Shown here in pieces: positions 41,230 through 43,014 of a DNA stretch of 64,000 bases. The stretch comes from Terriglobia bacterium (lineage in GTDB: Bacteria; Acidobacteriota; Terriglobia; Terriglobales; Acidobacteriaceae). The notes under the pieces are model-generated. The model did not search any database. It was not told where the DNA came from and worked only from the letters and a program-made list of their open reading frames with translations. The position numbers and the translations under genes were made by a program. Location of the stretch: contig JAIQGK010000020.1 in assembly GCA_020072645.1 (NCBI GenBank), positions 1 to 64,000 on the forward strand, given 5' to 3'. The number at the start of each line of letters is the position of its first letter. Position 1 is the first letter of the stretch.

Positions 41230-41772
41230 TTACGCGCTCCTGCGCGCCGCGGTAGGCAGTTTCGCCGCCGCGGGTTCCGATATCTCTTTCAGCCGCCCAG
41301 TCGTTACGTCATAAACAAAGCCGCGCACGGGAATGTGACTGGGGATAAATGGATGGCTGCGCACGCGCTGGATTTGCCGCCGCACATTTTCCTCCACGTC
41401 AGAAAACGCATGGAAGTGCACCGGAGCCACAAATGCCGTGCCGCTTTGTTTCTCCAGTCTGCCCAGCAGTTCGTGGTCCTTGAAGGTGAGCATGCCGCAA
41501 TCTGTGTGATTGATGATGATGAACTCTTGGGTTCCCAGCAGATGGTGGGAGATGATCAGCGAGCGCAAAGCGTCCTCGCTGGCGATGCCGCCGGCATTGC
41601 GGATAATGTGGGCGTCTCCGGTCTTTAATCCCAGAAACTGCTCTACCGTAAGGCGCGCGTCCATGCATGCCAGCACCGCCAGCTTGCGCGCTGGAGGCAT
41701 GGGCAGATGTCCCAGGGTAAATTGGTCCGCATACTTCAGATTGTTTTGTAAAACCTCATCGATAACGCTCAT
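41230..41772 (-). CDS. Beta-class carbonic anhydrase
   Basis: The 180-residue enzyme interconverts CO2 and bicarbonate. Zinc ligands are visible in LACMDARL (Cys, with the Asp-Arg dyad) and NHTDCGM (His and Cys). IIRNAGG and the conserved SEDALRSL are also present. ATG at 41772 (MSVIDEVLQ) has a good site (ggaaaggaaa) directly upstream; an in-frame ATG at 41814 has none and encodes a Lys-rich leader. It is preceded by a six-Cys leader peptide (41899-41976) on the same strand, so its expression may depend on cysteine supply. Confidence 0.92.
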   Translation of the reverse strand: MSVIDEVLQNNLKYADQFTLGHLPMPPARKLAVLACMDARLTVEQFLGLKTGDAHIIRNAGGIASEDALRSLIISHHLLGTQEFIIINHTDCGMLTFKDHELLGRLEKQSGTAFVAPVHFHAFSDVEENVRRQIQRVRSHPFIPSHIPVRGFVYDVTTGRLKEISEPAAAKLPTAARRSA

Positions 41773-41898
41773 GGATTTTTCCTTTCCTTTTTTATCTTCA
41801 GGCTTTTTATCCATAGCCAGCGCCGATTGGGAAGGATGCAGAAAGGAAAGCCCACCGCCCCGCTTAGTGCTGGCGATGGAAACTCTTGGTTTAAAGGC

Positions 41899-41976
41899 TT
41901 AAAACTGCAAAGAGCCGCCGTCGCCGCTGGTGACGCAGCAACAACAACAGCAGAGGAGCTGTGAACGACGGTGCAT
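41899..41976 (-). CDS. Poly-cysteine leader peptide
   Basis: This 25-codon frame begins ATG CAC CGT CGT and contains six consecutive Cys codons (residues 9-14, TGC TGT TGT TGT TGC TGC), followed by VTSGDGG and a stop at 41899. There is no ribosome site, but a promoter-like -10 (TATACT) lies 8 bases before the ATG, so the message would begin essentially at the start codon. It lies about 126 bases before the carbonic anhydrase start. Leaderless poly-Cys mini-ORFs act as cysteine-responsive attenuators in mycobacteria; a similar role here is inferred. The downstream 126 bases contain no strong terminator hairpin. Confidence 0.6.
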   Translation of the reverse strand: MHRRSQLLCCCCCCVTSGDGGSLQF

Positions 41977-41984
41977 GGAATCAG

Positions 41985-42013
41985 AGTATAGAAGCTGCGG
42001 TGGCTTTGTGCAA
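41985..42013 (-). promoter_or_regulatory. Predicted promoter of the poly-Cys leader and carbonic anhydrase
   Basis: On the minus strand, TTGCAC (42013-42008) is separated by 17 bases from TATACT (41990-41985). The -10 matches the sigma-70 consensus at five of six positions; the -35 is weak. The expected start point, 6-8 bases on, falls at about 41977-41979, one to three bases from the leader ATG. Confidence 0.5.
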
Positions 42014-42063
42014 ACCTTCACTGCCATTGCCACTCGATCCCGCATTTGTGCTAGCCTTCCTTT

Positions 42064-43014
42064 GTGTTGCATATCACCAATGGCGAATCGGTGACGGGCA
42101 CCTTCCGGCAAGTCAGGTTTCCGGGAACGTATCTTGCGTGGAACGACGTGCTACATGACGGTCCCGTGCCTCAGACTGCGACGCTGAATGAACTGTCTGA
42201 TGTTCGCGCGCAAGCGCTGGCCGGCTTCGGCTGGGGCGATCCCGAGAAAATGCGCGCCGATTTTGCCAACCGCGACCGGACACTCCAGGATTTCCGCAAG
42301 CATCAGGACGTGGTGCTTTGGTTTGAGCATGATCTTTACGATCAGTTGCAGCTTCTCCAGTTGCTGGATTGGTTTGAGCAGCAGGACCTTGAAGGCATCA
42401 ACCTCGATCTGGTGCAGATCGATTCTTACCCCGGTGTGCGGCCGTTTTACGGGCTGGGACAGCTGAGCGGGCCACAATTGGCGCGGCTATTTCCCATGCG
42501 CAAACGTGTAACGCATGCGCAACGCAGTATTGCCACGGAAGCATGGCACGCCTTCCGCGCTGAAGATCCCACTGACATGGCGGCAATCGCACAACAAAAG
42601 TTCGAAGAGATGCCGTTTCTGGCAGCGGCCCTCACACGCTTTCTGGAAGAGTATCCATGGACCAACGACGGGCTTTCCCGCACCGAACGGCAGATCCTGC
42701 AAGCTGTTGCCACGGGCAAACGCAAGAAAGCGGATATCTATGTCGAGTCGCGCAAGCAGGAGGATGTGCCCTGGGGCGATTTGTCAGTCTATTTGCGGCT
42801 CTCATGGCTCACTGCCGGACCTAATCCCGCGCTTATTGAGTCGCCCAAGAATGAATTCACGATCACCGACGCCGGCCGCCAGTTGCTGGAAGGCAAAGCT
42901 GACTGGATCAAGCTGCAAGGCGGTATTGATCGCTGGCTCGGCGGCGTGCACCTAACAGGCGAACAGCCTAAATGGTGCTGGGATAATCAGAAGAAGACAC
43001 TCATCGGCAATTGA
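42064..43014 (+). CDS. DUF1835 domain protein
   Basis: This 316-residue cytoplasmic protein has the DUF1835 N-terminus: LHITNGESVTGTFRQ, then the WNDVLHDGPVP box at residues 26-36. A helical second part (about 150-310) ends with winged-helix-like patterns (LSRTERQILQAVATGKRKKADI in pieces). The start is GTG at 42064 or TTG at 42067, without a clear ribosome site. It is divergent from the carbonic anhydrase leader. The biochemical function of the family is not established. Confidence 0.75.
   Translation: MLHITNGESVTGTFRQVRFPGTYLAWNDVLHDGPVPQTATLNELSDVRAQALAGFGWGDPEKMRADFANRDRTLQDFRKHQDVVLWFEHDLYDQLQLLQLLDWFEQQDLEGINLDLVQIDSYPGVRPFYGLGQLSGPQLARLFPMRKRVTHAQRSIATEAWHAFRAEDPTDMAAIAQQKFEEMPFLAAALTRFLEEYPWTNDGLSRTERQILQAVATGKRKKADIYVESRKQEDVPWGDLSVYLRLSWLTAGPNPALIESPKNEFTITDAGRQLLEGKADWIKLQGGIDRWLGGVHLTGEQPKWCWDNQKKTLIGN

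Follow-up and report, generated by a model that had tools for sequence, protein, structure and literature searches.

A putative cysteine-reading attenuator upstream of a beta-carbonic-anhydrase-family gene in an Acidobacteriota genome

Two genes of the window (the whole stretch of 64,000 nucleotides that was analysed) diverge from the locus described here: a DUF1835 gene, which runs from 42064 on the plus strand, and a gene for a beta-carbonic-anhydrase-family enzyme on the minus strand. Reading of the sequence between them showed a minus-strand ORF at 41976-41899, with an ATG at 41976-41974, 25 sense codons and a TAA stop at 41901-41899. The enzyme ATG at 41772, which has a ribosome site, lies 126 bases past the leader stop. 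The features of the locus are as follows.

41985..42013, minus strand: promoter-like element, TTGCAC (42013-42008), 17-base spacer, TATACT (41990-41985)
41899..41976, minus strand: leader ORF MHRRSQLLCCCCCCVTSGDGGSLQF followed by the stop, probably leaderless, with counterparts in other genera and families
41935..41952, minus strand: six consecutive Cys codons at which the ribosome is proposed to stall (region 1), five of the six kept in the sister genome
41918..41925, minus strand: region 2, GGCGACGG, proposed antiterminator arm, 7/8 pairing with CCATCGCC, unchanged in the sister locus L003
41851..41880, minus strand: terminator-like hairpin TCCATCGCC / loop AGCACTAAGCGG / GGCGGTGGG (regions 3 and 4), from a dedicated terminator search
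41840..41850, minus strand: pyrimidine tail CTTTCCTTTCT, imperfect U-tract of a terminator and/or anti-ribosome-site element
41781..41787, minus strand: ribosome site GGAAAGG of the enzyme gene, conserved in L003
41230..41772, minus strand: beta-carbonic-anhydrase-family enzyme, 180 aa, of the Rv1284 / COS hydrolase / CS2 hydrolase group

An earlier reading made without database searches (the sequence-only reading) had claimed a 25-codon minus-strand frame with six consecutive Cys codons, no ribosome site before it and a beta-carbonic anhydrase gene about 126 bases on. All of these held: no ribosome site was seen in the sequence before the leader ATG at 41976, and the identity of the enzyme was refined to the group named above. 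The claimed promoter, TATACT with a 17-base spacer to TTGCAC, also held as read, with a weak -35 candidate that matches TTGACA at just 3/6 positions; a promoter scan paired TATACT with TTTGCA or TGCACA, not with TTGCAC, and gave two overlapping matches versus 0.6 expected. As to the claimed leaderless start, the TATACT spacing was confirmed, with 8 bases between the box and the leader ATG and a predicted transcription start at or adjoining 41976. This spacing was found in the window and its sister and was not evident, by eye, in the other leaders. Leaderless initiation of the window ORF has no basis other than this spacing in the two sisters and is inferred from sequence alone.

Six consecutive TGY codons occur at two places in the whole 6.4 Mb genome; at the second (locus L001) the run is antisense to poly-Gln codons in a 707-aa ORF that we take to be secretin-like. 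Four consecutive TGY gave 71 matches in the same genome, and among the 30 of these that were examined no short ATG ORF of the same layout was found before an evident sulfur gene, the neighbours being unannotated. No known RNA family was detected in 41600-42300 at E values up to 5.

The closest relative is L003 in genome G006 (L084 denotes this locus too). Its enzyme is 99% identical to that of the window, and the locus keeps the leader ATG, an unchanged TATACT box, the leader stop and the ribosome site of the enzyme gene. Its leader, MHRRPQRLGCCCCCVTSGDGGSLQF, differs from that of the window by three amino-acid changes and one silent change, with no sign of selection on the leader peptide as a whole. 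The first Cys is replaced by Gly and five Cys codons are retained; thus, the count of six is not invariant. From the second Cys codon to beyond the stop a single base differs between the two genomes. Neither the in-frame ATGs upstream of 41976 nor a possible earlier enzyme ATG at 41814 is kept in L003, and for this reason the starts at 41976 and 41772 were preferred.

Close relatives of the enzyme were collected, each search having its own threshold, from 40/300 genomes of the family, 14/399 of the class, 33/89 of family f7 and 6/39 of family f5; a search of the phylum, for which the query was the enzyme of a relative, gave 5/396 genomes. A contig scan for enzyme relatives kept the best 80 of 107. 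The search sets overlap and no more than 30 loci were fetched per search. After duplicates and runs of N had been dropped, 125 distinct loci remained with an identity of at least 42% and at least 150 upstream bases. At the same position before the enzyme gene, other genera and two other families (f5 and f7) carry very different short ORFs with Cys runs, such as MPRYLAMCAAAVCCCCC.., MCCCCPS.. and MRHRSPSCCCCC.., most of the distant ones being followed by an intrinsic terminator. These leaders share the same plan and almost no common sequence. The leaders read were the following.

G142: MPRYLAMCAAAVCCCCCRVRGVGEACVP
G011: MSAYRPSAAPVAIGSACHCCCCRLPSGVGWVSVS
G175: ..APCCRRSCCRGHSGKG..
G131: ..ALCCCSRGCCCGHSGKG..
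G078 (L141): ..VPCCRRGLSG..
G338 (family f5): MCCCCPSASGASPFEITSL
G493 (family f7): MRHRSPSCCCCCRSGNQAMA
G318 and G486 (family f7): ..CCCARTAVCLTG

Weaker leaders were seen in G081 and in a Gemmatimonadetes record (L006); L006 and L155 are both classed as weak. Short ORFs with at least three Cys in seven residues were present at 16/125 loci versus 2.65 expected from dinucleotide shuffles, those with at least four at 9/125 versus 0.15, and those with at least five at 5/125 versus none in 2500 shuffles. Most enzyme loci have no leader. L141 and L006, with only two adjacent Cys, fall below the cut of three and were marked as leaders by hand; two adjacent Cys also occur in some loci that were counted as leader-free. 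The 13 marked leaders require eight changes on a 93-row enzyme tree, the bootstrap of which was not quite settled; four of these changes are forced by well-supported branches, so the trait comes and goes. The mini-ORF is real and has conserved counterparts, its translation and its response to cysteine being inferred. Lack of the Cys run in relatives had been named beforehand as a finding that would refute the proposal; other genera and families do have such a run, with its sequence rewritten. A search for known RNA families in six of the relatives' loci (L138, L085, L162, L166, L179, L140) gave only two tRNAs at the gathering score.

In five related leaders (L138, L085, L139, L140 and L141) the distance between the ATG and the segment proposed to pair as antiterminator is 21, 27, 24, 25 and 21 codons, respectively; despite these length differences the segment stands in the identical frame, with the same TGA seven codons later. 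In-frame TGY outside the longest run was not enriched (14 versus 26 and 16 in the other frames). The same five loci have in common, by eye, a motif TTTGTRACC located 17-18 bases before CATCT and upstream of the leader ATG, which could conceivably be their promoter.

The hairpin of the window was missed by a standard terminator scan, which has a loop limit of 8. Its core stem, CCATCGCC/GGCGGTGG, recurs in L003, where the loop differs, and in L166 of family f7, in the latter by eye only, as the terminator search found none there. Another group (g63/g83/g4) has the stem GCCGCTC..GAGCGGC; strong stems of different sequence are present in G338 and G318. Clear terminators, with a stem and then a T-rich tail, follow the leaders in L138, L085, L140, L162, L179 and L180, and the T tails are interrupted in L139 and L141. 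Leader and terminator were both found at 11 of the 125 loci, a leader only at 5, a terminator only at 12 and neither at 97 (Fisher p 1.9e-6). Without L201, a doubtful member of the 11 in which the flagged hairpin shares bases with the Cys codons of the leader itself, p is 1.6e-5; both values are generous since related leaders share ancestry. The distance from stop to hairpin is 19-26 bases in the 11 leaders that were folded (19 in the window) and is longer in L155 (29 bases) and L006 (41 bases).

Pairing of the segment behind the Cys codons with the 5' arm of the terminator was evaluated against shuffles in 13 leaders and is possible in most of them. The window segment GGCGACGG (41925-41918) pairs with CCATCGCC (41879-41872) with p 0.019, and in L166 the segment GGCGATGG pairs at 8/8 positions (p 0.006). 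The values were 0.008 for L003, 0.004 for L162 and 0.041 for L085, between 0.05 and 0.1 for L179 (0.057), L180 (0.065) and L140 (0.073), and weaker for L139 (0.16), L138 (0.21) and L141 (0.29); no signal was obtained in L006 (p 0.73) or L155 (p 0.67). Combined over nine groups, with L140 and L179 representing theirs, p is 4.4e-5, and with the worst member of each group it is 1.6e-4.

Folding was carried out on 11 of the 13 leaders, L006 and L155 being left out. When the ribosome was positioned at the stop, terminator probability was 0.88-1.0 in all 11. With the ribosome at the Cys codons it fell below 0.5 in five, namely the window (0.32), L166 (0.41), L139 (0.47), L085 (0.01) and L140 (0.00); in the other six (L003, L162, L138, L141, L179 and L180) it was still 0.84-1.0 at equilibrium, with 0.96 in the sister L003. 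Prior to synthesis of the 3' arm, 5-10 bases of the 5' arm were already paired upstream in the folding.

The enzyme matches Pfam family PF00484 (1.3e-15). Its best solved relative in the PDB is Rv1284 (5e-47), named as a carbonic anhydrase, followed by two chains also named carbonic anhydrase and then by the COS hydrolase 3vqj (1.1e-41); the value for the CS2 hydrolase 3ten is 1.3e-29. It has the motif CMDAR ... HTDCG in common with Rv1284, the corresponding residues of 3vqj being CMDAR and HTRCG. The motif provides the zinc ligands (PMC8209446). COS and CS2 hydrolases belong to clade D of the beta-carbonic anhydrases, in which sequences from Acidobacteria are found too (PMC8209446), and by relatedness, with no A-D reference tree behind it, the window enzyme is probably a clade D member. 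The gene for Rv1284 adjoins cysD. Placement in the Rv1284/COS/CS2 hydrolase group makes a link to sulfur less odd than it would be for a plain CO2 hydratase, and a carbonic-anhydrase-type enzyme tied to cysteine shortage is in turn likely to be used for sulfur. A role of the enzyme in sulfur supply is the most probable one, with less assurance than for the switch itself and as an inference without activity data. That it hydrolyses carbonyl sulfide to sulfide is a more specific guess, possible and likewise inferred.

The sulfur genes of the genomes concerned were surveyed with PF01507 (CysH, CysD) in 53 chosen genomes (12 + 34 + 7). The family is absent from the genome of the window (G000, 99% complete), with 14/14 control genomes positive. 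Above the cut-off it was present in 1/12 leader-bearing genomes (G081, with a weak leader), in 19/34 genomes with the enzyme and no leader, and in 5/7 congeners of G000 that have no close enzyme. The comparison of 12 with 34 genomes gave a Fisher p of 0.006 when kinship was ignored and was not significant after tree correction: the tree-aware test of leader against CysH/CysD absence had on average 2.3 concordant and 0.1 opposite pairs, too few for a decision (p 0.5). The upstream regions of all 34 leader-free genomes were read, and G048, G053, G077 and G083 had no ORF with at least three Cys. Two of the 34, G400 (L201) and G484 (L178), carry Cys-rich ORFs that no clear terminator follows and are devoid of CysH/CysD, so that counting both as leaders would strengthen the contrast. 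In the three genera with both states tested, the leader-bearing genomes lack PF01507 and the leader-free one has it (G338 versus G406; G493 versus G502; G318 and G486 versus G563), some of the contrasted genomes being incomplete (G493 79%, G563 82%).

Among 35 same-strand neighbours scanned, few were sulfur genes and most of the others were unrelated. In G338 the leader and the enzyme gene follow a gene for a PLP enzyme of Cys/Met metabolism.

In G318, genes for PALP, Prok-JAB, ThiS and ThiF-rhodanese are followed on one strand by the Cys leader and the beta-carbonic anhydrase gene (L210:5293-9243). We take this set to have the make-up of the CysM/Mec/CysO cysteine pathway, and from its gene content the cluster may be one for cysteine synthesis with an attenuator inside it. 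The leader-free enzyme gene of G406 lies between TauE and PAPS reductase genes on one strand (L165:677-2709).

The ORF, its Cys run, the hairpin, the complementarity and their recurrence in relatives are facts of the sequence. The best reading of them is that the locus is a ribosome-mediated attenuator sensing charged cysteine tRNA, with a probability of roughly 0.8; the start, translation, stalling, termination and cysteine response are all inferred. It would probably work by trp-type attenuation in which the amino acid read is cysteine, a proposal made by analogy, without transcript, translation or cysteine-response data. RNA polymerase would start at or near 41976, with a ribosome following on the leader ORF. 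When cysteine is ample, the ribosome would reach the stop, 19 bases before the hairpin, and cover the segment behind the Cys codons; the hairpin at 41880-41851 would then form and the message would be cut short. When cysteine is scarce, the ribosome would stall in the Cys run, GGCGACGG would pair with CCATCGCC, the hairpin would be blocked and the enzyme would be made.

A serious alternative concerns the output stage. A translational Cys attenuator of mycobacterial style, in which the pyrimidine tail masks the ribosome site until a stall at the Cys codons frees it, is possible, and in the window it must be taken seriously because there is a 10-base pairing between CTTTCCTTTCTG in the tail and AGGAAAGGAAAA in the region of the ribosome site (p 0.042; 0.074 in the sister L003). 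The ribosome site of the enzyme is 75% paired in the folded window leader, the U-tract of the window is imperfect, and for the Cys leaders of mycobacteria attenuation of translation is the mechanism described (PMC13236596). Against this, the pairing is absent in 7/9 other leaders (L138, L139, L140, L141, L162, L166 and L179, p 0.22-0.83; L085 gave p 0.03 and L180 p 0.05), and L138, L085, L140, L162, L179 and L180 have T-rich, terminator-like tails. Termination was placed before masking on account of the leader family as a whole. The last step in the window could be translational, either output being feasible there as far as can be judged from sequence alone, and the two might also act together. 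The claim in the sequence-only reading of a cysteine-responsive attenuator of a carbonic-anhydrase-family gene outside the Actinobacteria is supported as the best reading, its response being inferred, and the parallel drawn there with mycobacteria held only in part: the leaders overall look like transcription termination with an antiterminator, and the window is compatible with either.

That the Cys run is a mere TGY repeat or RNA element in an untranslated ORF, the hairpin being an ordinary terminator or a protein site, is unlikely. The lack of a Shine-Dalgarno sequence in the window and the lack of in-frame enrichment of Cys codons beyond the longest run speak for it; the frame and stop kept in five leaders of different length speak against it, as does the number of Cys-run ORFs, which greatly exceeds that in shuffles, and their association with terminators, although 5/16 leaders with at least three Cys had none in our terminator search. 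A chance ORF confined to a two-genome lineage can all but be dismissed: a leader with at least three Cys was found at just 16/125 loci, but this number, and the nine with at least four, far exceed the 2.65 and 0.15 expected, several genera and families are involved, and the same hairpin stem occurs in family f7. More weight attaches to the view that the switch is real and the enzyme an ordinary CO2 hydratase, for example for bicarbonate supply, and no sulfur enzyme, although we hold it to be rather the less probable side. The name given to Rv1284, the closest solved relative, agrees with it, as do the scarcity of sulfur genes among the 35 neighbours and a soil survey in which clade D dominated expression and no carbonic anhydrase with the characteristic COSase residues was found (PMC6330096). 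Arguments against it are the control by cysteine, the rarity of CysH/CysD among genomes with a leader, and the single clusters with cysteine-synthesis genes.

Mycobacterial polycysteine leaderless short ORFs are reported to be cysteine-responsive attenuators (Canestrari et al. 2020, Mol Microbiol; PMC8764745), and uORFs of mycobacteria have been described (PMC4633059). The window resembles them in having a short, probably leaderless Cys-run ORF before a sulfur-related gene; unlike these translation attenuators (PMC13236596), it has a terminator-like hairpin with an antiterminator pairing, and it belongs to another phylum and has a target of the COS-hydrolase group. The cysteine attenuators of Actinobacteria also have Cys-codon runs in a short ORF but no conserved terminator hairpins (PMC1262725), whereas hairpins lie behind most leaders here. 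With attenuators of the trp/ilv type (Mtb ilvB1 model, PMC13236596) the locus shares regulatory codons, antiterminator, terminator and a stop near the hairpin, but cysteine is read and the target is no named amino-acid biosynthesis enzyme. If correct, what is new is a cysteine attenuator of the terminator/antiterminator type beyond the Actinobacteria; in the phylum of the window, a 2010 survey had found almost no predicted attenuator with an associated function (PMC2965389).

The window enzyme is a sequence relative of clade D beta-carbonic anhydrases such as the COS hydrolases of Thiobacillus and Trichoderma (PMC8209446, PMC10880591), although, unlike these, the Acidobacteriota enzyme has to our knowledge no known activity. 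Trichoderma, with a clade D enzyme, uses COS as sole sulfur source (PMC10880591), and COSase in transformed E. coli is involved in COS assimilation (PMC8209446, PMC10880591). In seven soil metatranscriptomes, expression among the beta-carbonic anhydrase clades was highest for clade D, which also correlated with the uptake of COS (PMC6330096). In the open-access literature searched, no Cys-controlled COS hydrolase was found, nor anything linking carbonic anhydrase with polycysteine or the Rv1284 carbonic anhydrase with cysD, nor anything joining carbonyl sulfide, Acidobacteria, carbonic anhydrase and sulfur assimilation. The switch makes it testable whether bacterial clade D enzymes serve sulfur nutrition, and the locus raises the question of whether bacteria use COS as Trichoderma does, under cysteine control. 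A bolder reading, towards which the balance of evidence does not quite tip, is that Acidobacteriota without CysH/CysD feed on COS via a clade D beta-carbonic anhydrase under a cysteine-reading transcription attenuator. If this were true, bacteria would possess a pathway for COS assimilation and a dedicated genetic switch to control it, and part of the soil COS sink would be regulated sulfur feeding and not a side reaction.

Short upstream ORFs were also observed before same-family enzymes of Dormiibacterota, with no terminator found after them in L060 or L062-L064. They end in ..CRWLDDGCCGSAICSR or ..RCSTCLCS (..CLWLDHGSCGSAICSH in L063), with a gap to the enzyme gene of 52 bases in L060 and about 91 bases in L062-L064, and may represent another type of Cys leader.
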